From NCBI RefSeq assembly GCF_900182665.1, contig NZ_FXTL01000002.1, positions 310,001 to 374,000 of the forward strand: DNA of 64,000 nucleotides, read 5' to 3'. Below the pieces are notes generated by a model. It worked only from the letters and a program-made list of their open reading frames with translations, did no database searches and was not told the origin of the DNA. This DNA is from Propioniciclava tarda. Lineage in GTDB: Bacteria; Actinomycetota; Actinomycetes; Propionibacteriales; Propionibacteriaceae. The position numbers and the translations under genes were made by a program. Shown here piece after piece: positions 1 through 64,000 of the stretch (positions within the stretch are counted from its first letter, which is position 1; every line of letters begins with the position of its first letter).

Positions 1-720
1 TACGGCTGGGCGTTCGGCACCGCGCGTGGCGTCGTCAAGCGGACCAATCCCGAACTGCTCTCCAACAAGGACGCCTGGGAGCTGATCCGGCTCGACGAGG
101 GCGACGCGGTGGTCGGCGCGGTCGAGCTGACCGACGAGGCGGGTGAGCTCTGCTTCATCTCCGCGGACGCCCAACTGCTGCATTTCCCGGTGGCCTCGGT
201 GCGCCCGCAAGGTCGCACCGGTGGCGGGATGGCCGGTATCAAGCTCGCGTCCGGCGATGCGGTGGTGTGGTTCGGCCTAGTCGCCGATGACGACGCGACG
301 GTCGTCACCGTCTCGGGTGCGGGAACCGGGCTGCCCGGCACCGAGACCGGGCTCGTCAAGGTGACCGGTTGGAGCGAGTACCCCGGGAAGGGGCGCGCGA
401 CGGGCGGCGTCCGCTGTCATCGGTTCCTCAAGGGCGAGACTCGACTGCTGGCCGCGTGGGCCGGCTCGCGTCCGGCGATCGCCGCCGCGCCGAGCGGAAC
501 CCCGATCGAGTTCAACACCACCCATGACGGACGCCGCGACGGCTCCGGGACGCCCGTGCTGCAGCCCATCGGTGGCATCGGCTCGCGGCGCCACGGCGTC
601 CCGGGCGAGCAGAGCGAAGCGACCGCTCCTGAGAGCGCGACGCGTCCAGAGGTTGCTTCCCCGGCCGCAGCGCCGACCGCGGGCGCCTTCGGACTCAGCG
701 ACGACGAGACCTTGTTCTGA
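1..720 (+). CDS. parC: DNA topoisomerase IV (gyrase-like) subunit A, C-terminal part
   Basis: The frame is open from the first base, so the gene begins left of the window; 239 residues are visible. They carry the repeated blades of the GyrA/ParC beta-pinwheel DNA-wrapping domain, including the stretch GTARGVVKRT near the start and a GyrA-box-like QGRTGGGMAG about 60 residues later. The last 70 residues are a low-complexity Ala/Pro/Gly tail. The A subunit cuts and rejoins DNA together with the B subunit; the matching B subunit gene lies at 3524-5623. The catalytic tyrosine domain is outside the window. ParC rather than GyrA is inferred from the nearby ParE-type partner and from the usual actinobacterial location of the second type IIA enzyme. 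Confidence 0.85.
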   Translation, partial: YGWAFGTARGVVKRTNPELLSNKDAWELIRLDEGDAVVGAVELTDEAGELCFISADAQLLHFPVASVRPQGRTGGGMAGIKLASGDAVVWFGLVADDDATVVTVSGAGTGLPGTETGLVKVTGWSEYPGKGRATGGVRCHRFLKGETRLLAAWAGSRPAIAAAPSGTPIEFNTTHDGRRDGSGTPVLQPIGGIGSRRHGVPGEQSEATAPESATRPEVASPAAAPTAGAFGLSDDETLF

Positions 721-755
721 CCCAGCCTTCCGGTGGGAAGCGGCCAGGGCGGAGC

Positions 756-1250
756 TCAGACCTGACGCTCGAGCAGCCCGGTTTCCACGTCGTACAGGAA
801 GCCGGCGACCTTGGCGTAGGGCCCGATCAGCGGGTGCGAACGGACGGCTTCGACGTCCGCTGCGAGGCGTCCGAGTTGGTCGGGGTCGACACCGAAGTGG
901 AAGTCGCCGGTGTCGATACCCGTGGTCTCCAAGATGACGTCGCGGGTCTGCGCCTCGGTGCGCGACGCAGCGGCGCACTTGGTGTGCGGGATGATCAAGA
1001 TGCGGTTGACCTCCAGGCGATGAACGCCCATCACCATGCCGGCCAGGGCGTCCGGGGTCAGGTGGCTCCCGGGGGTGCGGAGGATCTTGGCCTCCCCCAC
1101 CCGCAGGCCGACCATCTCGAGCGGCTCCAGGCGCGAGTCCATGCACGTCAGGATCAACACGCCCTCGTGCGCGATGCCGTCGAAGCCTCGGGGTGCCGAC
1201 TTCGCGTAGCGTCGGTTGGCCGCGAGCAGGTCGTCGAATTCCTTGGTCAC
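756..1250 (-). CDS. beta-class carbonic anhydrase
   Basis: About 164 residues, the usual size of the short actinobacterial beta-carbonic anhydrases (Rv1284 type). It interconverts CO2 and bicarbonate. The zinc site is visible: the CMDSR motif gives Cys and the Asp-Arg pair, and HTKC later gives the His and second Cys. The start is chosen as a GTG at 1250 (residues VTKEFDD); the frame stays open further upstream but overlaps the end of the GH3 gene and loses similarity. A GAGGA sequence lies about 15 nt before this GTG and only 5 nt before an in-frame CTG, so the exact start is uncertain. It lies 31 bp after the GH3 gene on the same strand. Confidence 0.87.
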   Translation of the reverse strand: MTKEFDDLLAANRRYAKSAPRGFDGIAHEGVLILTCMDSRLEPLEMVGLRVGEAKILRTPGSHLTPDALAGMVMGVHRLEVNRILIIPHTKCAAASRTEAQTRDVILETTGIDTGDFHFGVDPDQLGRLAADVEAVRSHPLIGPYAKVAGFLYDVETGLLERQV

Positions 1251-1281
1251 GTGCGACAGACTAGTCCTCGGACCCGGCGTG

Positions 1282-7606: not shown

Positions 7607-8125
7607 TCAGGCCGCGTCGTCAGTCGGCGCAGGTCGGAACATCCGAACCTGCCGCCCGCCCGGCCAGCCGGGCTCGATCGGCCGGGACACGCCGTCCAGC
7701 TCGAAGCCGTTCTTCCGGTAGAAGGCGATCGCCCGATCGTTGCCCTCGATGACCCACAGGTACGCCGGCAGATCGTCGGAGATCGCGCGGTGTAGCAGGG
7801 CGTCCGCGAGCCCACTCCCCTTTGCGGCGTCCAGGACATACAGGGTCTTCAGTTCCAAGGACGCCGGCGCGTCAGCCTCTCCGGCGGCGTCCGCGTGCGC
7901 GACGGCGACGATCTCGCCGGCGGCGTCCACGCCGAGCCAGAACGTCACGCCACGGTCCAGCATCGCGGACGCCCAGCGCTCCGCCACAGCGGGCGCCCAG
8001 GCTTCGGCATTCGCGACGACGTCGTCCGGCAGGACGCCGGCGAACGACTCCCGCCACGCGTGGGCACGGACGCGAGACGCGGCGTCCAGATCGGACAGCC
8101 GTGCCTCGCGAATCTTGAACGCCAT
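7607..8125 (-). CDS. GNAT family N-acetyltransferase
   Basis: A 172-residue acetyl-CoA-dependent transferase. The fold is recognisable from the N-terminal IREARLSDLDAASRV, the central LKTLYVLDAAKGSGLADALL (beta4 plus pyrophosphate-binding loop, with a slightly reduced GxG pattern) and the C-terminal ALAFYRKNGF-like segment reading IAFYRKNGFELDG. The acceptor is unknown. Its ATG at 8125 lies one base after the stop of the frameshifted membrane-protein gene upstream, so the pair was probably translated together. Confidence 0.85.
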   Translation of the reverse strand: MAFKIREARLSDLDAASRVRAHAWRESFAGVLPDDVVANAEAWAPAVAERWASAMLDRGVTFWLGVDAAGEIVAVAHADAAGEADAPASLELKTLYVLDAAKGSGLADALLHRAISDDLPAYLWVIEGNDRAIAFYRKNGFELDGVSRPIEPGWPGGRQVRMFRPAPTDDAA

Positions 8126-27414: not shown

Positions 27415-27964
27415 GTTGGTGCTCCTTCAGCGATGCGCCGTCGGTCCTTCGGCGGCAGGCGGATTTCACTGGTGATGTTGCCACATGGGGACGCCGCCGA
27501 GGCACCACGCTGACGTGACGGCCGCCAGGCGACCACGAGTTGACTCTTCACACCCGTGGCCTGCCTTGAATCAATGCTTCCCCCGGGTCGATCCTGGCCC
27601 TCGCCACGACGCGCCAATGCCAGAGCGGGCTCCGGATGACTCCGAGACCGCTCACGACCGGCCCATAACCGCAAGTTCACCCGCAGTTGTCAGTCCAGTT
27701 CTCACTCGGTCGCTTGAACCTCGTCAACGGTGCTGATGGCGCCAGCGGCCGGCACCCGCTAATCGCTTTCGGTCGGGCGACGAGCCCTACTTTCGTGTGG
27801 GCCAACCCGGCGCCGGCCACCACTGGGCACGGTGACCTTGTACCTTCTGCCAACTGGCTTGAGGGTGGAAGCAAGGTCTGCATCGAGTTCGCGCTTGGGT
27901 GCTATCGGCTGGCTGGCAAGGTGAGCGCGAACGTGCCGATGTGTCGTTGAGGCTGTGGTTGTAT

Positions 27965-27985
27965 GCGACCTTCAAGCGACCTTCA
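27965..27985. repeat. tandem 10-bp direct repeat downstream of the methylase
   Basis: GCGACCTTCA occurs at 27965-27974 and again at 27976-27985, one base apart, so with an 11-bp period (one helical turn). It lies about 50 bp past the methylase stop. Confidence 0.7.
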
Positions 27986-27991
27986 GCTCGC

Positions 27992-28010
27992 GGGCGTCGC
28001 GACGGCGCCC
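27992..28010 (-). terminator. hairpin after the ParB-like/methylase operon
   Basis: GGGCGTCG and CGGCGCCC form an 8-bp stem with one G-T pair and a three-base loop, 27 bp beyond the methylase stop. There is no T-run on the minus strand (T/C-rich on the plus strand), so termination is likely but not certain. Confidence 0.45.
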
Positions 28011-28036
28011 TTATCTTCCTCCGGTCCGGGTAGTGA

Positions 28037-28963
28037 TCAGTTGCTGCCTGCAGGTTCCAATGAACCACCTATGACCGGCCCGTCGTGGACCCATCGAGAC
28101 TCGCCTAGCCGCATGAGCCGCTCGCCCGAGGCGGTGGCGTGGTCGCTGAACAGGGCGTATTCGGTGCCGACGTGCTGGGTATGCGCGGTGTGGGCGATGT
28201 CGAACTCCTTGCACCTTAGTCCCGCATATAGCTCGTCCGTGATGCGCGGGTCGGCATCGTAAGTGAGGAACCACTTCACCGGGGTCGCGCGGAGGCGGGT
28301 TGCGAGCTCCTGGTGGTCGACGAGAGTTAGCGAGTCCATGTAGAGGTGCTCGCCCTGGCCGAGGTATGGCGGATCCACGTACATGAACAGCAGGTCCGCG
28401 TCCGCGCGCTTCTCCAGGCCGGTGATAAAAGCTCGGGCGTCGAGCTCGGTGACATGGATGCGGGACGAGTACTGGCCGATGAGGCGGACGCGCCGGGCGA
28501 GCGTGTCGTGGTTATAGCGGGCGTCGATCTTCCACGCACCGGTCTGATCGAGCCCGCCAATAGGTCGGGCATCTAGGATCCCCGACCTATTGCACCTGTT
28601 AAGCAAGAAGGTGGCGAAGCCGAGAGTGAGGTCATCGCGAGTCTCCAGGTCGTTGTAGGTGGCGACGGCCTCGTGCCACGTGTCGAGGTTCACGATGGCT
28701 CTACGGACTCGCTCCTCGAACTCAGCAGGGTGGTTTGTGACTGCTCGCCAGAACGCGGCAATGCCCGGGTTCAGGTCGTTGATGTGGATGGTCTCTACGT
28801 GCTCGTCAACGAGGAGGCGGAGGGCTGCTCCTGCTCCGCCGGCGAACGGTTCTGCGTATGCGGTCGGTCGGGGTCGTTGTTGTCGGAGCAGGCTGGCGAG
28901 GTAGGGAGCGAGACGTGCTTTACCCCCTGGATACCGCAGTGGGGAGAGATAGCGCGTCGTCAC
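28037..28963 (-). CDS. D12-class (Dam-type) N6-adenine DNA methyltransferase
   Basis: A 308-residue alpha-class adenine methylase. The expected motif order is present: motif X in LRYPGGKARL near residue 11, motif I in AEPFAGGAGAAL near residue 38, a helical target-recognition region, and motif IV DPPYLGQG near residue 197. It transfers methyl from S-adenosylmethionine to adenine in a short site that cannot be predicted here. The GTG start overlaps the TGA of the ParB-like gene by 4 bp, so the two are translationally coupled. Codon choice is less GC-rich than in the flanking genes, suggesting horizontal acquisition. Confidence 0.9.
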   Translation of the reverse strand: MTTRYLSPLRYPGGKARLAPYLASLLRQQRPRPTAYAEPFAGGAGAALRLLVDEHVETIHINDLNPGIAAFWRAVTNHPAEFEERVRRAIVNLDTWHEAVATYNDLETRDDLTLGFATFLLNRCNRSGILDARPIGGLDQTGAWKIDARYNHDTLARRVRLIGQYSSRIHVTELDARAFITGLEKRADADLLFMYVDPPYLGQGEHLYMDSLTLVDHQELATRLRATPVKWFLTYDADPRITDELYAGLRCKEFDIAHTAHTQHVGTEYALFSDHATASGERLMRLGESRWVHDGPVIGGSLEPAGSN

Positions 28964-30312
28964 GGGACAGGATTCTGCCCGACATAGGTGTCCACGGCCA
29001 CGAGCAGCGGCCCGAAGTCCGCAGAGCGTGCCCGCACGTCGGACGAGGACGCGACCTTGGAGAAGTTGTGGACTGCCTGGTTCAGGTCGACGATCGCGAC
29101 CCCGCCCTTGCCGGTGTTAGAGGAGATGTATGCCGGCTGCAGCTTCCTGTCGCACTTCGATGAGTTGTCGCAGTCCGGGTCGAGTATCCTGATCGCCTTG
29201 ACGACCTTCTGATGCAGTTTGTCACTTTCGGCGCACCATCCGTACCTCTGCCCCGCCTCAGACAGGACAAGTTCAAGTATCACTCGGAGCATGACAGCGC
29301 CGACGTGAGGAGCATCCTCGATGGCGACCCTCTGCGCCTCGCTCAGAGTGATCTTCGTCCGGTTCGCGACGTACTTCAGCTTCACCGTTTCGAAGATGAC
29401 GCGTTCGTCCTTTGTCATCTTGCTCTTCGGCTTGCTCTCCACAGGGCTTCCCTTGCCCGCCCGTTCATCATCGTCGGAGTCCGTGACAGGGGCTAGCTCG
29501 CTTGCCTGCACGGGCTTCGCCAGACGGGTTTCCTTCGTCGGCTGATCGGACACGGCATCCTTCGTGTAGTCGCGCCGATCCTCCTTCGACATGAACGTGC
29601 CCACCGTGTTCGCCGCCAGGTCCCGCAGTAGCCTCAGCAAAGACCGTCGAATTGCCGCCCGCTCGTACAGGAACACGAGTTGCCCGTTGTGGAGGTCGAA
29701 ACCGAACGCGGCCCGCACGTCCGGGTCGGCGATGACACGCCCGATTGTGGTGATCGAACGCGCCTTCGCCTGCCGCAAAGCGTCCGTCATCTCCTTGTCG
29801 CCAGCGAATGCGACCGCTACCCCGTCTGTAAACGTCAAAGCACGATCTGCCTGAGTGCCGAGTTTCCTGTCGAACCTGTGCTGCTGCTCCGTCGTCCACG
29901 GGTTCACGCCTACCCCGCCGTTCTGGCCGGTGTGCCGCAGTTCGATCCAGTGACGGGCCGCGTCCCGCGAGGGGGCAACCCACACGTCGATACGCGCCGG
30001 ACCGGGCCCCCTCTGTGCGAGACGCTCGAACGCAGCCCTGATCTTCGGGTCGTCCGCTAGATCGGGGTTCGCGAGAACCTTCAGGCAGGCCAAGCGACGG
30101 TTTCCCTCAACAACGATCCGGGCTCCGTCCTCTTCTACCACGATGGGCGACTCGGCAGGGTTCAGCATGCCCTTGTCCCCTATGTCGGCCGCCAGAGCAA
30201 GCATCTTCTCCCGGTCCGCGAGCAGCGCGTTGATCGCCTCGCGCTGGCTCGCGGTCGCCTCGAACCGCGGATTGGTCACGTCGAGCAACAACTCGGCGGG
30301 GGTGAACTCCAT
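28960..30312 (-). CDS. ParB-like domain protein paired with the methylase
   Basis: About 450 residues. The N-terminal part resembles the ParB/sulfiredoxin fold: TPAELLLDVTNPRFEA, then IVVEGNRRLACLKVLANPDL near residue 60, which corresponds to the GxRR box. The middle is Lys/Asp-rich (a linker near residues 260-310). The C-terminal 150 residues are helical and carry LNQAVHNFSK, a pattern like LNxxVHN seen in helical C-terminal domains of other ParB-like proteins in mobile elements. No partition partner (ParA) or site is present. The start at 30312 is where similarity begins; the frame is open to 30819 and an ATG at 30468 is possible. Role unknown: modification, restriction or regulation with the methylase. 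Confidence 0.7.
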   Translation of the reverse strand: MEFTPAELLLDVTNPRFEATASQREAINALLADREKMLALAADIGDKGMLNPAESPIVVEEDGARIVVEGNRRLACLKVLANPDLADDPKIRAAFERLAQRGPGPARIDVWVAPSRDAARHWIELRHTGQNGGVGVNPWTTEQQHRFDRKLGTQADRALTFTDGVAVAFAGDKEMTDALRQAKARSITTIGRVIADPDVRAAFGFDLHNGQLVFLYERAAIRRSLLRLLRDLAANTVGTFMSKEDRRDYTKDAVSDQPTKETRLAKPVQASELAPVTDSDDDERAGKGSPVESKPKSKMTKDERVIFETVKLKYVANRTKITLSEAQRVAIEDAPHVGAVMLRVILELVLSEAGQRYGWCAESDKLHQKVVKAIRILDPDCDNSSKCDRKLQPAYISSNTGKGGVAIVDLNQAVHNFSKVASSSDVRARSADFGPLLVAVDTYVGQNPVP

Positions 30313-30907
30313 TGACCCATTCTGTACTCGGCCGCCTGCCGCTGGCTCGTCGACACGCACCCACTTTGGGTCCGCTGCTTGGCAACGCCACTTAAGGTTC
30401 CCACTCTTGCTCATCGCCATCTTCGTCATCAGAGGGCTGAGCATGTTGAGGTAGTCGTCCTCGGTCATGGCCGGGTACGTGCCATGCCTCGCCAACGAGG
30501 CGGTGAACCAGTCGAAGCGTTTCGGCCCAGTCGAGCGTCCGTGGCCGGGTTCAGCTCGCGAGGTGGTGGAAGTGGGCTGGCAGGTCCGTGGTCGTGTGGT
30601 CGGCGGTTGGTCGTCGCCCACGCCAACATGGGCACGTCGGCTGCCGGGTTCGGGCGGTTGATGGACGCAGCGCACGGGCCTGGGGCATGCTTCACGCCCG
30701 AGCGCCACACCACAACCCACAGGACCCGTCAACGAGAACCCCGGCCCGCCAATGCGGACCGGGGAAATCGTCATCCCTATGTCGCTCCTGCTCTCACCTG
30801 GCCGCTCCGGGCCGTCCAAAGTCTTTCGACCCGCGGTTCACCCAGCCCGGTTGTGAGCACCCACTGACATTTGATGAGTTCGGCGACATCTCAGTGAGGA
30901 CTGACAT
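30313..30907. other. 595-bp stretch between the ParB-like gene and nrdJ
   Basis: No confident gene. The minus-strand frame of the ParB-like gene stays open to 30819; between 30312 and about 30530 it has coding-like composition (for example MTEDDYLNMLSPLMTKMAM from the ATG at 30468), but upstream of that it is rich in Pro, Arg and His and looks random. Two hairpins are present: GCCTCG/CGAGGC at 30486-30501, and a stronger one at 30739-30764. Confidence 0.55.
30739..30764. terminator. strong GC hairpin between nrdJ and the island
   Basis: CCCCGG pairs with CCGGGG, and an inner CCGC with GCGG, around a CAAT loop. No T-run follows on either strand. It lies 144 bp past the nrdJ stop and may end nrdJ transcription or protect the island from read-through. 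Confidence 0.5.
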
Positions 30908-33766
30908 TCAGCTGCAGCCGGACGTGGACCCGCAGCCCTCGCAGACGTAGCACGACCCGGACGGACGCATCTTGGTGCCGCACGTGAGGCACAGGGGGGC
31001 GTCCACGGCGTGGCCGGTCAGCTTCTCCATCAGCTCGGCCGACGTGCGCGCCGTGCCGCTGAGCCGGGGCTCGATGGTGAGCAGGGCGGGCTGGTTGGCG
31101 CCGCGCTCGTCGAAGGTCATGTTGTCGGCCGCGTCGTTCTTGAGTGACTCGGACTCGATCATCTGAGCCTCGTCCTCCTCCGAGAGGTACGACCCGGTCG
31201 CCACGTACCGAGCGCGCTCGTCCGCGGTGTAGATGCCGAGCTCGGAGCGCTCGTCGAAGGCCAGGTAGTCCAGCGCCAGCCGCTTGAACACGTAGTCGAT
31301 GATCGACTGCGCCATCCGCAGATCCGGGTCGTCGGTCATGCCGGCGGGCTCGAACTTCAGGTTCGTGAACTTCTGGACGTACGTCTCGAGCGGGACGCCG
31401 TACTGGAGCGCGATCGAGATGGCGATCGAGAAGGCGTCCATCACGCCGGCGAGGGTGGAGCCCTGCTTGCCGAGCTTGAGGAACAACTCGCCGAGGCGTC
31501 CGTCGGTGTACTCCGAGGAGGTCATGTAGCCCTCGGCGCCGCCGACCGTGAACGAGGTCGTCTTGCCGCGCCGCGACTTGGGCAGCCGCTGGCGGCGGGG
31601 CCGGTACTCGATCCGCACCTCGGGCTCGGCGACCGGCGCCTCGACGACGGCCTCCTTCTTCTTGCCGTCCGACAGCGGCTGGCCGACCTTGCAGTTGTCG
31701 CGGTAGACGGCCAGCGCCTTGAGGCCGAGCTTCCAGCCCTGCAGGTAGACGTCCGCGATCTCCTCGACCGTCGCGGTCTCGGGCAGGTTCACCGTCTTGG
31801 AGATGGCGCCCGAGATGAACGGCTGCACGGCGGCCATCATCCGGACGTGCCCCATCGGCTTGATGGCGCGCTCCCCCATGGCCGTGTCGAAGACCTCGTA
31901 GTGCTCGCGCTTGAGCCCGGGGGCGTCCACAACGTGCCCGTTCTCGGCGATGTAGGCGACGATGGCTTCGGAGATCTCGTCCGAGTAGCCCAGCCGCTTC
32001 AGTGCCCGCGGCACCGTCTGGTTGACGATCTGCATCGAGCCGCCGCCGACCAGCTTCTTGAACTTGACCAGCGAGAAGTCGGGCTCCACGCCGGTGGTGT
32101 CGCAGTCCATCATGAAGCCGATGGTGCCGGTCGGGGCCAGCACGGACGCCTGCGCGTTGCGGAAGCCGTTGCGGGCACCCAGCTCGATCACCCGGGACCA
32201 CTCGTGCGTTGCCACCTCGTGGATGTCGCGATCGGCCTCTTCGATGAGGCGCAGCTCGTCGTTCGCGACCTGATGCTTGCGCATCACCTTCTGGTGCGCG
32301 GACGCGTTGCGCGCGTAGCCGTTGTAGGGGCCGACGATCGCGGCCAACTCGGCGGAGCGGCGGTAGGACGCGCCCGTCATCGCCGAGGTGATCGCCGCGG
32401 CCAGGGAGCGTCCGTTCTCGGTGTCGTAGCCGCGACCCATCGCCATGAGCAGGGCGCCCAGGTTGGCGTACCCGATGCCCAGCTGGCGGTAGTTGCGCGT
32501 GGTCTCCGCGATCGACTCGGTCGGGAAGTCGGCGAAGCAGATCGAGATGTCCATCGCGGTAATGATCAGCTCGACGGCCTTCACGAACGTGGCGGCGTCG
32601 AAGGTGTCGTCCTCGCCGAGGAACTTCAGCAGGTTCAGCGAGGCCAGGTTGCAGGAGCTGTTGTCGAGGCTCATGTACTCCGAGCAGGGGTTGGACGCCG
32701 TGATGCGTCCGGTCTCTGGGTTGGTGTGCCAGGCGTTGATCGTGTCGTCGTACTGAATGCCCGGGTCGGCGCACTCCCAAGCGGCCAGCGCGATCTTGTT
32801 CCACAGCTCGCGGGCGTCGACCGTCTCGACGACGCGTCCGTCCTTGCGGCCGCGAAGCCCGAACTCGCTGCCGGCCTCCACCGCCGCCATGTAGGAGTCG
32901 GAGACGCGCACCGAGTTGTTGGCGTTCTGGTACTGGACGCTGACGATGTCCTTGCCGCCGAGATCCATGTCGAAGCCGGCGTCGCGGAGCGCGCGGATCT
33001 TGTCCTCCTCGCGCGCCTTGGTCTCGACGAACTCGACGATGTCGGGGTGGTCGACGTCCAGAACGACCATCTTCGCAGCGCGCCGCGTGGCGCCGCCGGA
33101 CTTGATCGTGCCCGCGGAGGCGTCCGCGCCACGCATGAAGCTGACCGGACCCGACGCCGTACCACCCGAGCTCAGCAGCTCCTTGGACGAGCGGATGCGC
33201 GACAGGTTCAGGCCTGCGCCCGAGCCGCCCTTGAAGATGAACCCCTCTTCGCGGTACCAGTTCAGAATCGACTCCATGGAGTCGTCGACGCTGAGGATGA
33301 AGCAGGCCGACACCTGCTGCGGGGACGCCGTGCCGACGTTGAACCACACCGGGGAGTTGAAGCTGAAGTACTGGTGGATCAGCATCCACTTGAGCTCGTG
33401 CCCGAAGATCTCGGCGTCCTCGGCGGTCGCGAAGTAGCCGTATCGCTCGCCGGCCGCCTGGTAGGTGTCGACGACGCGATCGACGAGCGCCTTGAGGGAC
33501 GCCTCGCGGGCGTCCGTCCCGACGGCCCCGCGGAAGTACTTGGTGGTCACGATGGTCGACGCGTTCAGCGACCAGTAGTCGGGGAACTCGACACCGCGCT
33601 GCTCGAAGACGGTCTCGCCGGTCTTCCAGTTGGTCTGGACGACGTCGCGGCGCTCCCAGGTCACCTCGTCGTACGGGTGGACGCCCGCCGTGGTGAAGAC
33701 CCGCTGGATCGTCAGGCCCTTCGGCTTTCCGGACGCCTTCGTGCGCTCGGTCTTGGTGTCGGTCAT
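30908..33766 (-). CDS. nrdJ: vitamin B12-dependent (class II) ribonucleotide reductase
   Basis: A 952-residue adenosylcobalamin-dependent enzyme that reduces ribonucleotides to deoxyribonucleotides. Landmarks are FNSPVWFN, the active-site region NPCSEYMSLDNSSCNLASLN near residue 372, LAPTGTIGFMMDCDTTG, and the C-terminal cysteine cluster CLTCGTKMRPSGSCYVCEGC, which fits a redox-active or zinc-binding tail. Length matches the long actinobacterial NrdJ. It is 52 bp downstream of nrdR and shares its promoter. Its far side is the junction with the ParB-like/methylase island. Confidence 0.96.
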   Translation of the reverse strand: MTDTKTERTKASGKPKGLTIQRVFTTAGVHPYDEVTWERRDVVQTNWKTGETVFEQRGVEFPDYWSLNASTIVTTKYFRGAVGTDAREASLKALVDRVVDTYQAAGERYGYFATAEDAEIFGHELKWMLIHQYFSFNSPVWFNVGTASPQQVSACFILSVDDSMESILNWYREEGFIFKGGSGAGLNLSRIRSSKELLSSGGTASGPVSFMRGADASAGTIKSGGATRRAAKMVVLDVDHPDIVEFVETKAREEDKIRALRDAGFDMDLGGKDIVSVQYQNANNSVRVSDSYMAAVEAGSEFGLRGRKDGRVVETVDARELWNKIALAAWECADPGIQYDDTINAWHTNPETGRITASNPCSEYMSLDNSSCNLASLNLLKFLGEDDTFDAATFVKAVELIITAMDISICFADFPTESIAETTRNYRQLGIGYANLGALLMAMGRGYDTENGRSLAAAITSAMTGASYRRSAELAAIVGPYNGYARNASAHQKVMRKHQVANDELRLIEEADRDIHEVATHEWSRVIELGARNGFRNAQASVLAPTGTIGFMMDCDTTGVEPDFSLVKFKKLVGGGSMQIVNQTVPRALKRLGYSDEISEAIVAYIAENGHVVDAPGLKREHYEVFDTAMGERAIKPMGHVRMMAAVQPFISGAISKTVNLPETATVEEIADVYLQGWKLGLKALAVYRDNCKVGQPLSDGKKKEAVVEAPVAEPEVRIEYRPRRQRLPKSRRGKTTSFTVGGAEGYMTSSEYTDGRLGELFLKLGKQGSTLAGVMDAFSIAISIALQYGVPLETYVQKFTNLKFEPAGMTDDPDLRMAQSIIDYVFKRLALDYLAFDERSELGIYTADERARYVATGSYLSEEDEAQMIESESLKNDAADNMTFDERGANQPALLTIEPRLSGTARTSAELMEKLTGHAVDAPLCLTCGTKMRPSGSCYVCEGCGSTSGCS

Positions 33767-36002: not shown

Positions 36003-37385
36003 CTAGAACAGCAGGGCCAGGCCCGGTTCCCTCAACACGGTGGCCACGTCGTTGAGGAACCGGGCTCCTGCTTCTCCGTCCAGGACGCGGTGATCGATCG
36101 TGAGCGTGAGCGTCGCCACCGACCGGATCTCCAGCTGATCCCCGTCCGGGCCGGACACCACCCAGGGTCGCTTGTTGATGGCCCCCAGGCACAAGACGGC
36201 CGACTCCCCCGGCACCAGGATCGGCGTCCCGCCTTCGATGCCGAACACGCCGACGTTCGTGATGGTGAACGTACCGCCCCGGCAGTCGGCCGGCGTGATC
36301 CGTCCTTCGCGGGCCGCGGTCACGATGCCGTTCAGGGCCTGCGCCAGCGCCACGAGGCTGAGCTGGTTGGCCGCCTTGATGTTCGGCACGACCAGCCCGC
36401 GGGCGGTCGCGGCGGCCACGCCGAGGTTCACGTCGTCGGGGACGACGATCTCGCCTCGATCGAGGTCGATCGAGCCGTTGACTTCGGGACTGCGGTTCAT
36501 GGCCAGGCACACCGCCCGGGCGAGCACCAGGATGGGCGAGATGCGCAGCCCGTCGAACTCGCGGCGCTTCTTGAGCGCCTCAATCAAGCGCACCGTCTCG
36601 GTCACGTCGACGTCGGCCCACAGCGAGGCCTGCGGGGCCTTGACCGAGTTGATCATCGCGTTGACCATCTCGCGCCGCACGCCGCGCAGGGGCGTCCGGG
36701 TGACCCGTCCGGGCTGCGGACCGTTCCCGCCTGAGACGGACGCCGCCCGCGCCACGTCGGCCGCGGTGATGGTCCCGTCCGGACCCGTCCCGGTGACAGT
36801 CGAGAGGTCGACCTCCAGGTCGCGGGCCAGCCGCCGGACCTGCGGCTTCGCCCGGACACCGTTGAAGCCGGACGCCCCGGACGCCGGTTCGCCCGGCTCG
36901 GGCAGCGGCGGCGGGACGGCTCCCGCCGAGAGGGGCGCGGGCGACGAGACCTCGTCGACGGGCCGGGACACGGGGGCGTCCGTGGCGTAGGACTCGTTCA
37001 CCAGCTCGTGCCGCTCGTCGGCCACGACCGCCCCCTTGCGGGGGCGTCGGCTGACGGCCGCCGCAGAGGTGCCGTAGCCGACCAGGACGGCACCCGAGCC
37101 TTCAACCTCGCCCACGACAGGGCCGGACACCGTCGGCGTCCCGGCGTCCTGGCCCTCGTCGACCGTCATGATGGCCGATCCGACGGGCACGATTTGCCCC
37201 TCGTCCACCAGCAGGGCCACCACGGTGCCGGCATGCGGCGCGGGCAGTTCGACGAGCGACTTGGCCGTCTCGATCTCGACGATGGCGTCGTTGACGGCCA
37301 CCACGTCGCCCGGCTTCACCAGCCAGTGCACGATCTCAGCCTCGACGAGACCCTCACCGGGGTCGGGCAGCAGCACGGTCTTCAT
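36003..37385 (-). CDS. bkdC: dihydrolipoamide acyltransferase (E2) of a 2-oxoacid dehydrogenase
   Basis: A 460-residue E2. The N-terminal lipoyl domain has its lipoylated lysine in EIETAKSLVELPAP near residue 46; a Pro/Ala/Ser-rich linker follows, then the peripheral subunit-binding domain (RAKPQVRRLARDLEVDLSTV near residue 170) and the catalytic domain ending with the active-site HRVLDGEAG. It is the last gene of the E1alpha-E1beta-E2 operon. Branched-chain substrate preference (bkdC) is inferred from similarity to actinobacterial clusters; a pyruvate role cannot be excluded. Confidence 0.88.
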   Translation of the reverse strand: MKTVLLPDPGEGLVEAEIVHWLVKPGDVVAVNDAIVEIETAKSLVELPAPHAGTVVALLVDEGQIVPVGSAIMTVDEGQDAGTPTVSGPVVGEVEGSGAVLVGYGTSAAAVSRRPRKGAVVADERHELVNESYATDAPVSRPVDEVSSPAPLSAGAVPPPLPEPGEPASGASGFNGVRAKPQVRRLARDLEVDLSTVTGTGPDGTITAADVARAASVSGGNGPQPGRVTRTPLRGVRREMVNAMINSVKAPQASLWADVDVTETVRLIEALKKRREFDGLRISPILVLARAVCLAMNRSPEVNGSIDLDRGEIVVPDDVNLGVAAATARGLVVPNIKAANQLSLVALAQALNGIVTAAREGRITPADCRGGTFTITNVGVFGIEGGTPILVPGESAVLCLGAINKRPWVVSGPDGDQLEIRSVATLTLTIDHRVLDGEAGARFLNDVATVLREPGLALLF

Positions 37386-37395
37386 CGGACTCTCC

Positions 37396-38370: not shown

Positions 38371-39467
38371 GCGGTCTCCTCGAAGGACGCCTCGTAGGCC
38401 TCGTGGGCGTCGCGCTGGCGGATCAGCCCGGACGGCGTCTTGGCGTAGACGCGGGTGAACCAGTCGGCGAGGGCCGGATCGGGCAGTGAGACGACGTCGT
38501 CGCGCAGCTGCTCGGCGAGGGCGTCGGACTCGTTGGTGAGATGACCCTCCCAGAGGTCGTCGATGGCCCCGGTCGACCGCAGGTAGGCCCGGACGCGGGC
38601 GATCGGGTCCTTGGCCCGCCAGGACGCCTCTTCGTCGCGTCCCCGGTACTTGGTGGGGTCGTCCGAGGTGGTGTGGGCGCCCATGCGGTAGGTGAAGGCC
38701 TCGATGAACGTCGGACCCTCGCCGCGACGCGCCCGGTCGAGCGCCCATGACGTGACGGCCTGCACGGCCAGGACGTCGTTGCCGTCCACGCGGACGCTGG
38801 GGATGCCGAACCCCCGGGCACGCTGGTAGAGCGGGATCTTGGTCTGGCGCTCGATCGGCACCGAGATGGCCCACTGGTTGTTCTGGCAGAACAAGACCAG
38901 CGGCGCGTTGTAGGACGCGGCGAACACGAAGGCCTCGCTGACGTCGCCCTGGGACGTCGCCCCGTCGCCGAAGTAGACCATGGCGGCGGCGTTGGTGGCG
39001 TCGTCGGGGCCCACGCGTCCGTCGAGCTGGAGGGCCATCGCGATGCCCGTGGCATGCAGCGCCTGGGTGCCGATCACGAAGCTGTACAGGTGGAAGCGCA
39101 GGGCGCGGCTGTCCCAGTCGACCATGTGGGTGCCGCGGAACGTCTTGAGGATCTCCAGGGGCGTCACGCCCATCCCGAGCGCGACGGCGTGCTCGCGATA
39201 GCTCGGGATGACCTCGTCGCGCGACCCCACTGCGGCCACGGAGCCCACCTGGGCCGCCTCCTGCCCCAGCATCGGCGGCCACAGCCCGAGTTCCCCCTTG
39301 CGTTGCAGGGCGGTCGCTTCGGCGTCCAACCGGCGCGCCAGCACCATGGCGCGCAGGTGGGCCGCGATCGAGGAATCGTCGCCGGCGTAGCCGAAGTCAG
39401 GGTGGGAGACGCGGCGTCCGTCGGGCGTCAGCAGCTGGACGAAGCCGGGATCGTGGTCGAGATCCAT
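38367..39467 (-). CDS. bkdA: 2-oxoacid dehydrogenase E1 component alpha subunit
   Basis: A 366-residue subunit with the thiamine-diphosphate motif GDGATSQGDVSEAFVFAASY running to FCQNNQW near residues 170-200. The start MDLDHDPGFVQLL and the sequence YRMGAHTTSDDPTKYR match the BkdA/PdhA type of actinobacteria. It is the first gene of the three-gene operon. A -10 hexamer TAGGAT ends 6 nt before the ATG, so the transcript is probably leaderless. Confidence 0.9.
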   Translation of the reverse strand: MDLDHDPGFVQLLTPDGRRVSHPDFGYAGDDSSIAAHLRAMVLARRLDAEATALQRKGELGLWPPMLGQEAAQVGSVAAVGSRDEVIPSYREHAVALGMGVTPLEILKTFRGTHMVDWDSRALRFHLYSFVIGTQALHATGIAMALQLDGRVGPDDATNAAAMVYFGDGATSQGDVSEAFVFAASYNAPLVLFCQNNQWAISVPIERQTKIPLYQRARGFGIPSVRVDGNDVLAVQAVTSWALDRARRGEGPTFIEAFTYRMGAHTTSDDPTKYRGRDEEASWRAKDPIARVRAYLRSTGAIDDLWEGHLTNESDALAEQLRDDVVSLPDPALADWFTRVYAKTPSGLIRQRDAHEAYEASFEETA

Positions 39468-51882: not shown

Positions 51883-53019
51883 TCAGAAGACCAGCTCGCC
51901 GGTCAGGGGGTCGACGCCGTCGGGAACAGCGGACGCCTTGCGTCCGCGCGGCGACGGCGAGGCGGGCTCGGCTGCGGGCGCCGGAGCGCTCGCAGCCGTG
52001 GCGGCGGCCAGCGCGGCCGCACCTTCCGGACCGATGCCCAGCTTGGCCTTGATGCGCCGTTCGATCTCGTTCGCAACCTCAGGGTTGCGCTTGAGGTAGT
52101 TGCGGGCGTTCTCCTTGCCCTGGCCGAGTTGATCGCCCTCGTAGGTGAACCAGGCCCCTGCCTTGCGGATGATGCCCTCTTCCACACCGGCGTCGATCAG
52201 GCTGCCCTCACGGCTGATGCCCTCGCCGTAGATGATGTCGAACTCGGCCTGCTTGAAGGGCGGCGCGACCTTGTTCTTGACGACCTTGACGCGGGTGCGG
52301 TTGCCCACCGACTCGGTGCCGTCCTTGAGGGTCTCGATGCGACGCACGTCGAGGCGCACGGTGGAGTAGAACTTCAGGGCGCGGCCACCCGTGGTGGTCT
52401 CGGGTGAGCCGAACATCACCCCGATCTTCTCGCGCAGCTGGTTGATGAAGATGGCGGTGGTGTTCGACGAGTTCAGAGCGCCCGTCATCTTGCGCAGCGC
52501 CTGGCTCATGAGGCGCGCCTGCAGGCCGACGTGGCTGTCGCCCATCTCGCCCTCGATCTCGGCGCGCGGGGTCAGAGCTGCGACGGAGTCGATGACCACC
52601 AGTGCAAGGGCACCCGAGCGCACCAGCATGTCGGCGATCTCCAGCGCCTGCTCGCCGTTGTCGGGCTGGCTGACCAGCAGGGCGTCGGTGTCGACGCCCA
52701 GCGCCTTCGCGTAGTCGGGATCCAGGGCGTGCTCGGCGTCGATGAAGGCGCAGATGCCACCCGCGCGCTGGGCGTTCGCCACCGCGTGCAGGGCCACGGT
52801 CGTCTTACCGCTCGACTCCGGGCCGTAGATCTCCACCACGCGCCCGCGCGGCAGGCCGCCCACCCCGAGCGCCACGTCCAGAGCGATGGACCCGGTCGGG
52901 ATGATCTCCATCGGCAACCGGGTCTCATCGCCCAGCCGCATGACCGACCCCTTGCCGTGCTGCTTCTCGATCTGGGCGAGCGCGGCCTCCAGAGCCTTCT
53001 CGCGATCAGCTACCGCCAT
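51883..53019 (-). CDS. recA: recombinase RecA
   Basis: A 378-residue RecA. Walker A is [12 protein letters not shown] near residue 66; the L1/L2 DNA-binding loops and [20 protein letters not shown] are intact. The C-terminal tail (residues about 335-378) is Ala/Pro-rich. It catalyses strand exchange and triggers LexA cleavage. It is preceded by a GGAAAGGA ribosome site and a 120-nt leader, with an SOS-controlled promoter at 53136-53163. No intein is present, unlike some mycobacterial RecA. Confidence 0.98.
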
Positions 53020-56405: not shown

Positions 56406-57626
56406 ATGCGCCGACAGATCTTTCAGAGCCGCAAGCTGGCCGACGTCCGCTACGACGTCCGGGGACCCATCCTCGTCGAGGCCCAGCGGCTCGAGGCCGA
56501 GGGCCACAAGATCCTGAAGCTCAACATCGGCAATCCGGCTCCGTTCGGCTTCGAGGCCCCCGAGGGCATCCAGGCGGCGATGATCCATACGTTGGGCGAG
56601 TCGCAGGGCTACTCGGACTCGCGCGGCATCTACGCCGCCCGGACGGCCGTGGCGAACTACTACCAGTCGCACGGGCTGACCGGGGTCGGCGTCGACGACG
56701 TCTACATCGGCAACGGGGTCAGTGAGCTGATCAGCATGATCCTGCAGGCCTACACCGACAACGGCGACGAGATCCTGGTGCCCGCGCCCGACTATCCGCT
56801 CTGGACGGGCGCCGTCACGCTGTCGGGCGGCAAGGCCGTCCACTACCTGTGCGACGAGAGCAACGGCTGGAACCCCGACCTCGCCGACATCGAGGCCAAG
56901 ATCACCGACCGCACCAAGGCGCTGGTCGTGATCAACCCCAACAACCCCACCGGAGCGGTCTATAGCGAGGACATCGTCAAGGGCCTTGCCGAGATCGCCC
57001 GCCGCCACGAGCTGGTCCTGTTCAGCGACGAGATCTACGAGAAGATCCTGTTCGACGGGCACGTCCACCACCACACGGCGACGTTCGCCGGCGACGACGT
57101 GCTGTGCATCACCTTCAGCGGGCTGTCGAAGGCATACCAGGTCTGCGGCTACCGGGCCGGCTGGGCCGTGATCACCGGCCCGAAGGACATCGCCGCCGAC
57201 TTCATCGAGGGCATCACGCTGCTGGCCAATATGCGGATGTGCGCCAACGTGCCTGGTCAGCAGGCCATCCAAACCGCGCTGGGCGGCTACCAGAGCATCG
57301 ACGAGTACATCGTCCCGGGGGGCCGCTTCTACGACCAGAGCAAGCTCGCCTGGAAGCTCCTCAACGAGATCCCCGGCGTGAGCTGCGTCGAACCGCAGGG
57401 CGCGTTGTACGTCTTCCCGCGCCTCGACCCGGACGTCTACCCCATCGAGGACGACCAGGCGTTCGTCATCGAGCTGCTGCGGGCCAAGAAGATCCTGGTC
57501 ACGCACGGGACCGGCTTCAACTGGCCGCACCCGGATCACTTCCGCCTCGTCGCACTGCCGGACACGTCCGTGCTGACCGAGGCCATCGGCCGGATCGCGA
57601 GCTTCCTCGAGACCAAGCGAGCCTGA
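56406..57626 (+). CDS. pyridoxal phosphate-dependent aminotransferase (AlaA/AspC-like)
   Basis: A 406-residue class I aminotransferase. The pyridoxal phosphate lysine is in FSGLSKAYQVCGYRAGW near residue 240; other marks are LKLNIGNPAPFGFEAP, NPNNPTGAVYS and SDEIYEKILFDG. The pattern matches glutamate-pyruvate type AlaA and the actinobacterial AspC annotated in M. tuberculosis (Rv0337c). GC content is lower than in its neighbours, and the GGACGCC heptamer is absent, unlike most genes here. It interrupts the usual ftsK-rimO order. Confidence 0.9.
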   Translation: MRRQIFQSRKLADVRYDVRGPILVEAQRLEAEGHKILKLNIGNPAPFGFEAPEGIQAAMIHTLGESQGYSDSRGIYAARTAVANYYQSHGLTGVGVDDVYIGNGVSELISMILQAYTDNGDEILVPAPDYPLWTGAVTLSGGKAVHYLCDESNGWNPDLADIEAKITDRTKALVVINPNNPTGAVYSEDIVKGLAEIARRHELVLFSDEIYEKILFDGHVHHHTATFAGDDVLCITFSGLSKAYQVCGYRAGWAVITGPKDIAADFIEGITLLANMRMCANVPGQQAIQTALGGYQSIDEYIVPGGRFYDQSKLAWKLLNEIPGVSCVEPQGALYVFPRLDPDVYPIEDDQAFVIELLRAKKILVTHGTGFNWPHPDHFRLVALPDTSVLTEAIGRIASFLETKRA

Positions 57627-57629: not shown

Positions 57630-58631
57630 GTGCGGTCGGCGGGCCTGCTGGCCGGGGCGGCCGTCGTCGCCCTCACGGTCGGCGCGTGCGCGTCGGCGCC
57701 GGGTCCGGTGCCCGGTGTGGGGGCGTCGCCGTCGACCTCGACGTCGGCGTCCGGGATCGCGTCAGCCAGCGCGGCGACGCCGTCGGCGTCCGTTCCTCGG
57801 GGGACGCCGGGGGCGGCCTACCTGGACGTCGCGTACGCCTCGGACGACTCGGTGTCCCATCGGTTGGACCTGTACCTCCCCACAACCCCGGGGCCGTCCG
57901 CGACCGTGCTGTTCCTCCACGGTGGGTCCTGGGCGATCGGCCGCAAGACGATGCTCGGCGGCTACGGGGCGCTCAGAGACGCCCTGCTGGCACGGGGCTA
58001 CGCGGTGGCGAGCGCGGAGTTCCGCCCGAGCACCTCCGCGCGGTTCCCGGCCCAGCTCGACGACGTCAAGGCGGCGATCAGGTTCCTGCGGGCGAACGCG
58101 GGGGGCCTCACGCTTAAACCTGACACCCTGGTCCTCGCCGGCGACTCCTCCGGCGCCCACCTGGCCCAGCTCGCCGCCCTGACCGGTGACGATCCCGCCT
58201 GGGAGGGGACGGTCGGGACGACCGGCGTCTCCACCAAGGCGTCCGCCGTGGTCAGCTTCTACGGCGTCTCCGATCTCACGCGGCTGACGTCCGATCAGGA
58301 CGCCGCCGGCTGCCAGTTCGACGCCGCGACGACGGGCGTCCTGATCACGCTGCTGGGTGGCGACCCGGCCGGCGCCGCGCGCGAGGAGGCCCTCCGGGCG
58401 AGCCCCGTGTCCCACGCGGGCGGCGCCAGGACGCCGATGCTGCTGCTCCACGGGACGAAGGACTGCCTGGTGCCCGCGGCGCAGAGTCAGCGGATGGCCG
58501 ACGCGCTCCGGGCCGCCGGGACGCCGGTGCAGCTCGAACTGCTGCCCGCGGGCCACGATGACGGCGCGTTCTACACCGACCAGGTGCTGCGCGGACTGGT
58601 CCTGCCGTTCCTGGATCGCACCCTCGGCTGA
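57630..58631 (+). CDS. alpha/beta-hydrolase esterase, predicted lipoprotein
   Basis: A 333-residue secreted esterase. The signal peptide ends at the lipobox VGAC, with the Cys at residue 20, so it should be lipid-anchored on the cell surface. A 40-residue Ser/Ala/Pro-rich linker follows. The hydrolase has the oxyanion motif FLHGGSW, nucleophile Ser in AGDSSGAH near residue 170, Asp in GTKDCLV and His in PAGHDDGAF. It belongs with the BD-FAE/carboxylesterase group; the substrate is unknown. The GTG start at 57630 is 3 bp after the aminotransferase stop. Confidence 0.82.
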   Translation: MRSAGLLAGAAVVALTVGACASAPGPVPGVGASPSTSTSASGIASASAATPSASVPRGTPGAAYLDVAYASDDSVSHRLDLYLPTTPGPSATVLFLHGGSWAIGRKTMLGGYGALRDALLARGYAVASAEFRPSTSARFPAQLDDVKAAIRFLRANAGGLTLKPDTLVLAGDSSGAHLAQLAALTGDDPAWEGTVGTTGVSTKASAVVSFYGVSDLTRLTSDQDAAGCQFDAATTGVLITLLGGDPAGAAREEALRASPVSHAGGARTPMLLLHGTKDCLVPAAQSQRMADALRAAGTPVQLELLPAGHDDGAFYTDQVLRGLVLPFLDRTLG

Positions 58632-58647
58632 GCGCGGAGGCGTCCTG

Positions 58648-61093: not shown

Positions 61094-61099
61094 ACCCTA
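61094..61099 (-). promoter_or_regulatory. -10 hexamer of ftsK
   Basis: TAGGGT on the minus strand, 7 nt before the ATG at 61086, predicts a leaderless transcript. Confidence 0.5.
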
Positions 61100-61153
61100 A
61101 CAAGCTCCCGCGGCCGGACCCCCGAGCCGGGCGTCCGCCACGCCGAGCGCGGC

Positions 61154-61483
61154 TCAGACGGTGGGGTCGTCGGTGAGAGCTTGGTAGAGCACGTGGTCCT
61201 GCCAGACGCCGGCGATCTTCACCAGCTTCGGCGCGAGGCCGTAGCGCTCGAATCCGTTGGCGAGTAGAGCCTTCTGCGACGCGACGCTGTGGACGAGGGT
61301 GCCGGCCTCGAGCCGGTGCAGACGCAGCGCCTTCTCGATCACGGTGCGCTGACCCGTCAGCGTGAAGTAGTCGTCGCCCCGGGTCGGCTCCCACGGCTCG
61401 AGGTGTTCACGGGACGCGACCAGCAGGGCCGCCAGTTCGTCCGCGTCCGAGAGCTCGACCAGGCGAATGCGCAGCTTCGTCAT
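61154..61483 (-). pseudogene. RimJ/RimL-type GNAT with the acetyl-CoA core deleted
   Basis: A 109-residue open frame that joins the N-terminal part of a RimJ/RimL acetyltransferase (SREHLEPWEPTRGDDYFTL) directly to its C-terminal part (LHRLEAGTLVHSVASQKALL, NGFERYGL, WQDHVLYQ). Family members are about 170-180 residues; the missing 55-65 residues include the acetyl-CoA pyrophosphate loop. The reading frame is intact, so this is an in-frame internal deletion. The product is unlikely to be an active acetyltransferase. It lies 8 bp after thiL on the same strand. Confidence 0.7.
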
Positions 61484-61491
61484 CCCCGGAC

Positions 61492-62454: not shown

Positions 62455-63578
62455 CGCAGGCCCATGGGGCGCTCGAGGGCCAACTGGACGAGGGCCGCGA
62501 TCAGGTCGGGGTAGGCCAGCCCGGACGCCGCCCACAGCGAGGGGTACATCGACGTCCGGGTGAAGCCCGGCATGGTGTTGATCTCGTTGACGACCACGTC
62601 GTCGTCCTCGGTGACGAAGAGATCGACGCGTGCCAGCCCCTCGCAGTCGAGGGAGTTGAACGCTGTGGCCGCGACCCGCTGCATCCGGCTCAGCAGGGCC
62701 GGGCTGACGTCGGCGGGGATCTGCAGCGTGACACGCTCGTCCGGGGTGTACTTGGCCTCGTAGTCGTAGAAGGCGTCGTCGGTGTGCACGAGAATCTCGC
62801 CCGCGATCGACACCCGCGGACGCCCGCCGGTCACCCCCAGCACCGACAGCTCGATCTCGCGGACGCCGACCAGCCCCTCTTCGACCAGGACCTTGGGGTC
62901 GTGCTGCTGGGCCGCATGGATTGCTGCAGGGAGGTCCGCGGGACCAGTCACGCGGCTGATGCCCATGGACGACCCAGCGCGGGCCGGCTTGACGTAGAGC
63001 GGGAACGAGAGGTCCGCAGAGCACTTGTCGAGGAGGCGTCCGGGGTTGGCGTCCCAGGCGGCCTTCGTGATCGTCACCCACGGACTGACGCTCAGCCCGG
63101 CGCCCATCAGCTGGCGCTTCATGATGTCCTTGTCCATCCCGTTGGCGGACGCGGCGACGCCGGAGCCGACATACCGGATACCCAGCATCTCGAACAGGCC
63201 CTGGATCGTGCCGTCCTCGCCGAACGGTCCGTGGAGCAGGGCGAACGCCACGTCGAAGTCGTGGACGTCGGAGAGCCGGTCGCCGTCCAGCGTGGCGACC
63301 CGGCCGCCGCCGTTGGTTCCGCGGAAGACGGACGCCTCGGGGCGTCCCTCGTCCAACCGTGGAAGACGGTCGTCGACGACCTCCATCGCCCGCATGTCGG
63401 CCAGGGGCACCTGCACCCAGCGACCGGACGGCGTGATCCCGATGCCGACGACGTCGAAGCGCTCGCTGTCGATCGCGCGCGTGACCCCGCCGGCCGTGAG
63501 GCACGAGACGTCGTGCTCCGAGCTGACCCCGCCGAAGATCAGCGCCACCGTGATGCGGTCTGCTTGGTGGTTCGACAT
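62451..63578 (-). CDS. ddl: D-alanine-D-alanine ligase
   Basis: A 375-residue ATP-grasp ligase for peptidoglycan precursors. The N-terminal FGGVSSEHDVSCLTAGGV, the catalytic-loop FALLHGPFGEDGTIQGLFEM, LYVKPARAGSSMGISRV and the C-terminal NEINTMPGFTRTSMYP are all typical of Ddl. Start is ATG at 63578. It follows a plsC-like gene on the same strand. Confidence 0.95.
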   Translation of the reverse strand: MSNHQADRITVALIFGGVSSEHDVSCLTAGGVTRAIDSERFDVVGIGITPSGRWVQVPLADMRAMEVVDDRLPRLDEGRPEASVFRGTNGGGRVATLDGDRLSDVHDFDVAFALLHGPFGEDGTIQGLFEMLGIRYVGSGVAASANGMDKDIMKRQLMGAGLSVSPWVTITKAAWDANPGRLLDKCSADLSFPLYVKPARAGSSMGISRVTGPADLPAAIHAAQQHDPKVLVEEGLVGVREIELSVLGVTGGRPRVSIAGEILVHTDDAFYDYEAKYTPDERVTLQIPADVSPALLSRMQRVAATAFNSLDCEGLARVDLFVTEDDDVVVNEINTMPGFTRTSMYPSLWAASGLAYPDLIAALVQLALERPMGLR

Positions 63579-63642
63579 GGAGGCTCCTGCCGGTCGTCAG
63601 TGTGGTGGACCGCGGGCCAGCCTAGCGAAGCCCTCAGCGCCG

Positions 63643-64000
63643 TCAGTGCGGCTGGCGCGCGCCGACCCGGGTGTCCCAGCGTCCCTCGGGGGCCTGTTGG
63701 CCACGCGCCTGCTCGACGAGCACCGTGATGGCGTCGAGGATCCGGTCGGTGGCGACCTGGAGGTCGGCCTTGCTGGGCTCGTCGCCGTACAGGTCGGCCA
63801 GGGGCACCGGCGGGCCGGCGATCACCCGCATCGTCCGGCGCGGCCAGATGTGGAATCCCGGCCGCCCGGGCGGCATGACCTCTTGCGCGCCCCATTGCCC
63901 GACCGGGATGACGGGCGTCCGGGTGGTGAGGGCCAGGCGGGCCGCGCCGGGGCGTCCGGTCATGGGCCAAAGATCGGGATCCTTGGTCCGGGTGCCCTCG
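63643..64000 (-). CDS. 1-acyl-sn-glycerol-3-phosphate acyltransferase-like, C-terminal part
   Basis: Open at the right edge of the window; 118 C-terminal residues are seen. They begin with the PlsC motif EGTRTKDPDLWPM, followed by GAARLALTTRTPVIPVG (motif IV, the conserved proline block), and end in a hydrophilic tail. The acyl-accepting HxxxxD motif is outside the window. The gene would feed phosphatidic acid to phospholipid synthesis, the pathway that also uses PgsA. Confidence 0.85.
   Translation of the reverse strand, partial: EGTRTKDPDLWPMTGRPGAARLALTTRTPVIPVGQWGAQEVMPPGRPGFHIWPRRTMRVIAGPPVPLADLYGDEPSKADLQVATDRILDAITVLVEQARGQQAPEGRWDTRVGARQPH

Follow-up and report, generated by a model that had tools for sequence, protein, structure and literature searches.

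The window considered here is a stretch of 64,000 nucleotides from the actinobacterium Propioniciclava tarda (assembly GCF_900182665.1, contig NZ_FXTL01000002.1, positions 310,001 to 374,000), whose genes are strewn with one short word, the heptamer GGACGCC and its reverse complement GGCGTCC. An exact scan of the window finds 284 copies, 137 on the forward and 147 on the reverse strand (4.4 per kb), against a dinucleotide-shuffle expectation of 42.86 (standard deviation 5.84; the largest of 100 shuffles reached 56). Under a second-order Markov model GGACGCC ranks first among all over-represented 7-mers of the window (284 versus 41.4, z 37); the words ranked after it overlap it down to z 9.4, and no non-overlapping word exceeds z 9. 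The excess extends to the whole genome, where 2,974,143 bases hold 6,848 forward and 6,980 reverse copies, 13,828 in all, or 4.65 per kb and about one per 215 bases, as against 1,180 for the control, namely the same word read backwards and counted genome-wide. The strong over-representation on both strands reported in the initial annotation is thereby confirmed, as are most of its local counts: the six copies placed in 36001-37000 are exact in number and in all six positions, and the roughly eight in 57630-58640 are eight. Only the seven copies assigned to 37381-38380 need correction, the scan giving six, with a seventh beginning at 38385.

Coding constraints do not explain this excess. Synonymous-codon shuffles within genes (n = 40) produce 81.7 ± 7.1 copies (maximum 94), and shuffles that also keep the codon-junction dinucleotides (n = 40) produce 79.0 ± 7.5 (maximum 94), whereas the called genes of the window hold 260. 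These shuffles are conservative, because the codon usage that they retain may itself have been shaped by the word. The seven heptamers that stand furthest above the codon shuffles are GGACGCC and words overlapping it, so that neither of the two outcomes named beforehand as speaking against a special word, an equal frequency after codon-preserving shuffling or an equal enrichment of other heptamers, was obtained. It had also been stated that the word falls in several frames; in fact all six classes of frame and orientation are occupied, but less evenly than had been implied, two of them (xxG-GAC-GCC and xxG-GCG-TCC) holding 177 of the 260 coding copies (68%). Over 432 kb, which represent 14.5% of the genome (the window and 19 further stretches), the excess is 7.4-fold in coding DNA (1,675 versus 227 expected) and 5.8-fold in noncoding DNA (222 versus 38.5). 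Since the genes were called crudely, by codon score, and the noncoding set contains some missed genes, the 6.8-fold excess in intergenic DNA, counted over stretches no longer than 300 bases (73 versus 10.8), is the safer figure. Taken together, the codon shuffles and the intergenic excess speak against codon or dipeptide bias as the cause, as had been argued at the outset for any single amino-acid pair or codon preference, and the GGACGCC excess lies at the DNA level, both within and between genes.

The distribution of the word within the window is summarized in Table 1. The gene that holds the six-copy cluster is one that we take, from reading its sequence, to encode a dihydrolipoamide acyltransferase, and the alpha/beta-hydrolase gene is among the denser ones. 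Two further early observations hold, recA carrying the word only in its variable tail and the aminotransferase gene not at all. Third-position guanine-plus-cytosine (GC) content in the genes of the word-free stretch is 0.77-0.78, below that of most called genes of the window; this lower value, together with the absence of the word, suggests that the stretch is probably acquired DNA.

Table 1. Distribution of GGACGCC/GGCGTCC and associated features in the window
Feature	Positions	Strand	Basis
Field of 284 copies	1..64000	137 +, 147 -	Exact scan
Called gene with the highest density, 15.4 per kb (8 copies, gene length 519 bases)	7607..8125	-	Copy count
Word-free stretch of 3.5 kb	27496..30997		Exact scan
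D12-class adenine methylase within the word-free stretch	28037-28963	-	Pfam match
Open reading frame lacking a Pfam match within the word-free stretch	28960-30312	-	Pfam search
Six-copy cluster	36223..36981	36223-, 36691-, 36738+, 36870+, 36879+, 36975-	Exact scan
Sole copy in recA, falling near residue 361 (of 378) in the variable tail	51931..51937	+	Copy count
Conserved aminotransferase-like gene (name from the initial annotation), zero copies	56406..57626	+	Copy count
Eight copies in the alpha/beta-hydrolase gene (57630-58631, +)	57746..58525		Pfam BD-FAE/Abhydrolase_3

The word behaves as a unit. Measured over a model that masks it, GGACGCC is 9.3 times more frequent than expected, and its 21 one-base neighbors together reach 1.31 times expectation, ranging in this genome from 0.82 to 2.6 (GGACGCG). 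Neighbor depletion was not judged by maximum-order Markov statistics, since by construction these lower the sister extensions of any enriched word. A stationary substitution model over all 7-mers was also run, in which all three edges leading into the word at one position are boosted. A 30-fold boost at any one position yields an excess of 2.3-fold (3.7-fold at position 3), and the same boost depletes the source words to 0.33-0.51. A ninefold excess with undepleted neighbors therefore indicates that the word is favored or protected at many positions, as a whole, and both the undepleted neighbors and the substitution model argue against a base-specific mutation bias.

Comparison with congeners points in the same direction. 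Seven of them were aligned (mean protein identity 70-77%; nucleotide identity 0.71-0.78 over aligned blocks), six of which, all but G086, entered the tests at codon level. At sites where a fourfold degenerate codon box precedes two shared codons, the G that completes the word is retained in 18 of 24 cases before a shared GAC-GCC and in 25 of 98 before GAC followed by a non-Ala codon (Fisher p 1.8e-5; congeners pooled, so that sites repeat). Further controls give 4 of 12 in one small context and a retained fraction of 0.37 (n = 124) before GCC codons, and in the reverse context 21 of 25 are retained before GCG-TCC versus 27 of 45 (p 0.059). When each site is counted once, retention is 0.83 (26 sites) versus 0.41 (60 control sites; Mann-Whitney p 5e-5). 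It follows from this higher retention of the completing base that GGACGCC is maintained at synonymous sites as a DNA word. Amino-acid identity at codons that carry the word is 0.63-0.71, versus 0.72-0.79 elsewhere, and is lower in six of six congeners (0.713 versus 0.792 for G249), so the avoidance of conserved cores noted in the initial annotation is real, if modest.

With regard to orientation, the closed chromosome of the congener G107 carries 565 forward and 531 reverse copies over 23 stretches of 20 kb, and orientation is unrelated to GC skew across them (Spearman 0.13, p 0.54). The near equality of the two orientations claimed for the window is thus found again at chromosome scale, which speaks against a polarity of the kind displayed by Chi or by the FtsK-orienting polar sequences (KOPS). 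Spacing between copies is near-exponential, i.e., close to random. Among the noncoding pairs of words 7-30 bases apart, 13 of 22 are inverted and face inward, where one quarter would be expected (binomial 0.0007), but only two of these are placed between genes that converge, with another two close to the end of a gene. Foreign-looking islands are poor in GGACGCC: the two lowest-GC stretches of G107 have 21 and 14 copies, where the average stretch has 47.7, and in P. tarda there are zero copies across the C5 methylase gene C4:13143-14210, the only PF00145 match of the genome. The start of contig C4 is probably an acquired restriction-modification island. The first 16 kb of this contig contain 11 copies and have a GC content of 62.9%.

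The excess characterizes the genus, being present in 13 of 13 genomes at 1.6-4.65 per kb (densities computed from rounded genome sizes) and at 3.5-11.7 times the reversed control. In a survey of 293 genomes of the order, only scattered genomes outside the genus are raised, e.g., G152 with 2.4 per kb, G176 with 1.7 and G215 with 1.65, the congener of G152, G262, having 0.84. A set of 394 genomes of the class includes 39 from the order; in all the others the density stays within about 1.7 per kb and the ratio to the reversed control within about 3.4. Named relatives reach at most 1.44 per kb at 80 loci (a set from which near records may be missing) and so none of them looks like the genus; the nearest are metagenome-assembled genomes of Propionibacteriaceae, with 73-75% MiaA identity.

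Other genera of the family carry related words, most of them with the core G(G/T)ACG. In g6, GGACG followed by any base is raised in four genomes (GGACG 1.9-2.3 times expectation); GGACGA is raised in two of the three genomes of g17 and in one of g14 (G306), and GGACGG and GGACGC are among the most over-represented words of G262. In g19 the raised word is GACGCC (2.4 times), from which the full core is absent. A second type, GTACGCC, differs from GGACGCC by one base. It is in excess in g9 (8.5 and 18.4 times), g13 (7.6 times) and g11 (3.4 times), although in g11 the leader is CGTACGC (6.5 times) and the top 6-mer is CGTACG, the only palindrome among the related leading words of the family; in G131 of g10 it reaches 4.7 times, yet other words lead. 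Whole genomes contain 7,478, 7,335, 6,354, 3,329 and 3,082 copies of GTACGCC in five members of g9, 5,836 in g13, and 4,672 in G131 versus 1,323 in its congener G156, as against only 562-968 in the 13 genomes of the GGACGCC genus. G012 shows a moderate excess (3,132 versus 720 for the control). The anatomy of GTACGCC in two g9 genomes resembles that described above for GGACGCC, with 11.6-fold coding and 11.0-fold noncoding excess, 82/77 copies in the two orientations and a tolerant last base. In the sampled genomes of g4, g5 and g7 (20-60 kb each) neither word exceeds about twice expectation.

These types are clustered by descent. On a MiaB protein tree of 29 of 30 genomes (G215 is missing, its gene spanning two stretches), the GGACG type requires 5 changes, as few as which occurred in none of 500 label shuffles, whereas for the GTACG type the number is 3, matched or undercut in 9 of 500. 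The labels were assigned by us from word excesses in sampled stretches, so that G012, for example, is labeled "none" from its 40 kb despite its moderate whole-genome excess. Moreover, the tree is that of one gene and its deep forks are weak; 10 of its 26 inner branches are open, and the row of G107 is shortened by 81 bases.

The combination of a ninefold excess with undepleted neighbors, presence in both strands and in intergenic DNA, and maintenance at synonymous sites makes us confident that GGACGCC is recognized as a whole word in double-stranded DNA. Some DNA-binding protein would recognize the complete heptamer, and copies would accumulate and persist because the intact word is favored over its one-base variants. 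What the recognizer does is a more tentative matter. The reading that we prefer, without regarding it as established, assigns it to DNA uptake or to the homologous recombination that ensues. GGACGCC could accordingly be a word marking self DNA that owes its spread to a bias in uptake or recombination, a proposal that we advance with the same reserve: fragments bearing the word would be preferentially taken in or recombined and would overwrite alleles lacking it. Such a molecular drive has been proposed for the DNA uptake sequences (DUS) of Neisseriaceae and the uptake signal sequences (USS) of Pasteurellaceae, and is applied to GGACGCC by analogy. The dialects may then reflect drift in the specificity of the recognizer. 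Somewhat more speculative still is the extension to the family, in which several actinobacterial genera would each carry thousands of copies of their own dialect, mostly with the G(G/T)ACG core, which some recognizer would read and biased uptake or recombination would spread.

Comparison with known systems bears on this proposal. Neisserial DUS are described as very abundant, short and non-palindromic, in permissive locations, with dialects that share a core and follow phylogeny (PMC3630211), all features found in GGACGCC. The close inverted pairs recall those of DUS, which occur in terminators (PMC3630211). On the other hand, DUS have at least 10 bases versus 7 here, the hosts of GGACGCC are high-GC actinobacteria, and the densest DUS quoted in that paper amounts to about 2.5 per kb (5,918 in 2.4 Mb; PMC3630211), versus up to 4.65 per kb here. 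The USS of Pasteurellaceae are dispersed genome-wide as well, but their sequence is another one and their function has been demonstrated. USS are also longer and AT-rich. The highly iterated palindromes (HIPs) of cyanobacteria, HIP1 and its alternates, share with GGACGCC the high iteration, the lineage specificity and the replacement by other words in some relatives, but they are palindromes with matching methylases (PMC4390886). Chi and KOPS are short, lineage-specific and over-represented too, but oriented by replication. The initial annotation had named both HIP1 and uptake or recombination sequences as comparable cases. The latter fit better, and HIP1 is the weaker analogy for want of a palindrome, because of the dialects in relatives, and with no PF00145 or PF01555 orthologue found throughout the genus. 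Judged by its dialects, symmetry, scatter and maintenance, GGACGCC resembles neisserial uptake-sequence dialects more than palindromic HIP1 or Chi.

Several observations weigh against an uptake or recombination word. We know of no natural transformation in this group, no receptor for the word was identified, and seven bases are short for an uptake signal. ComEC matches occur in 49 of 50 genomes (48 over the cut-off), including 12 of the 13 in the genus, and a T2SSE-family ATPase is found in every genome searched for it (40 of 40), but both are also present in word-poor genera; their presence therefore neither supports nor contradicts uptake, and presence or absence of either was rejected as the determinant, since this machinery does not track the word. 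In G012, a single closed contig with its moderate GTACGCC excess, ComEC is in two pieces. Copies unchanged in place exceed the median of frequent 7-mers in only 4 of 7 congeners (28.7% versus 24.8% for G249) and fall below it in G083, G086 and G241, in part because the word sits in less conserved residues. Asp-Ala and Ala-Ser dipeptides are not better conserved within words than outside (23 of 65 versus 38 of 77, G249). At positions aligned with four low-word relatives Asp-Ala numbers 252 versus 167 and Ala-Ser 184 versus 132, but differences of equal size are seen within the genus for the reversed dipeptides, the shift is only partly specific, and a push of the word on the proteome is uncertain. 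Finally, a few neighbors are low in congeners (GGACGCA 0.6 times expectation, GGACCCC 0.5-0.6), GGACGCA being low (0.2-0.6) in word-poor genomes as well, and G086, the sole genome of the genus lacking a PF01555 methylase, also has the lowest word density, which favors the methylase explanation discussed below. An actinobacterial precedent for transformation exists in Micrococcus luteus, which has Flp/Tad pili together with comEA and comEC (PMC6370729). The ComEC pieces of G012 (G012:C1:3721636-3723718) lie about 1.3 kb apart, as if interrupted.

The alternative that survives best, although we consider it unlikely, is that the word is a by-product of methylation and repair. As in HIP1, the best known word of such a sort, an orphan methylase would mark all or part of the word, which would then be restored or fixed by repair, either methyl-directed or specific to the word. 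Alternate HIPs accompany matching methylases and their one-off sites differ mainly at the ends (PMC4390886). The best tolerated change of GGACGCC, to GGACGCG, is also at an end, and the palindrome leading in g11 would suit the same mechanism. Moreover, 10 of 11 genomes of the genus give a PF01555 match, G086 being the exception already mentioned, and G000, G249 and G083 have one orthologue in common (69-82% identity). A second kind is found in G107, G223 and G293, while G098 and G241 are distantly alike and G294 and G295 stand apart; two matches are left out of this comparison, one in G083 with an internal stop and one below the cut-off in G098. Judging from these sequences, parts of the genus seem to have inherited two different PF01555 genes, one in G000/G249/G083 and one in G107/G223/G293. 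However, GGACGCC is not a palindrome, PF01555 methylases are of several kinds, with none over the cut-off in the word-rich G152 and none in the GTACGCC-rich G123, and PF00145 (C5) methylases are confined to 8 of the 13 genomes of the genus, three of those without one being at least 99% complete. No orthologous PF00145 or PF01555 methylase runs throughout the genus (D12, type I and BREX-type enzymes were not searched across it), and this patchy, mixed distribution weakens the case that a single C5 or PF01555 orthologue lies behind the word. In addition, almost all Actinobacteria lack MutS/MutL (PMC5290159, PMC12892979), so that the published MutSL-based HIP model would need another repair route.

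Slightly less probable, in our judgment, is that GGACGCC represents the binding site of an abundant chromosome-organizing, replication or defense protein, each copy being under weak direct selection. Whole-word dependence, occurrence in both orientations and in coding as well as intergenic DNA, and maintenance would all agree with it, and a ninefold excess corresponds to a scaled advantage of about ln 9 = 2.2. Nevertheless, spacing is near-random and positions turn over, selection on each of 13,828 sites is demanding, and a change of dialect would mean rewriting thousands of them. It is improbable that a nuclease of the RecBCD, AddAB or AdnAB type reads the word as a Chi-like regulator of recombination or as a mark of self. 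Chi words have 5 to 8 bases and drift between related groups, in which GGACGCC resembles them, and the word-poor islands would fit the marking of self DNA; Chi and KOPS words are, however, oriented by replication, and no relation of orientation to GC skew is seen here. As for ordinary composition, whether through codon usage, amino-acid pairing or a mutation bias that acts on one base according to its context, the concentration of coding copies in two frame classes is outweighed by the codon shuffles, the intergenic excess, the reversed-word control, the undepleted neighbors and the substitution model, and we give it next to no credence.

No report of the GGACGCC word was found in the open-access literature, most subscription papers lying outside the search; the literal strings GGACGCC and GGCGTCC led only to unrelated papers, GTACGCC and GGCGTAC to none, and the accessible part of PMC2843746 contains nothing on GGACGCC. 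The case adds a high-GC actinobacterial example to the old question of how a single short word comes to pervade certain genomes, as with HIP1, DUS and USS. Relatives that lack the word, keep it or change it by one base form a natural series, which makes causes testable, e.g., through a gene that changes along with GGACGCC to GTACGCC or with the decay of the word. Should GGACGCC prove to be an uptake or recombination word, it would imply active, self-selective gene exchange in a group in which none is known to have been demonstrated, it might aid in transforming these bacteria, and it would be, to our knowledge, the first such dialect system outside Neisseriaceae and Pasteurellaceae.

Some other words were noted along the way. 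CGAGTTC/GAACTCG (41 versus 10.4; raised in some relatives) and CGAGATC/GATCTCG (64 versus 23.1) are also over-represented in the window, though much more weakly than GGACGCC. Both g10 genomes, G131 and G156, show words unrelated to it, namely CTTCTCC at 6-12 times and TGATCA-type words at 4-9 times expectation. In 40 kb of G262, AACCGTCC, ACCGTCCC and ACGGTTCT each occur about 12-17 times more often than expected, which suggests a longer word or a dispersed repeat.

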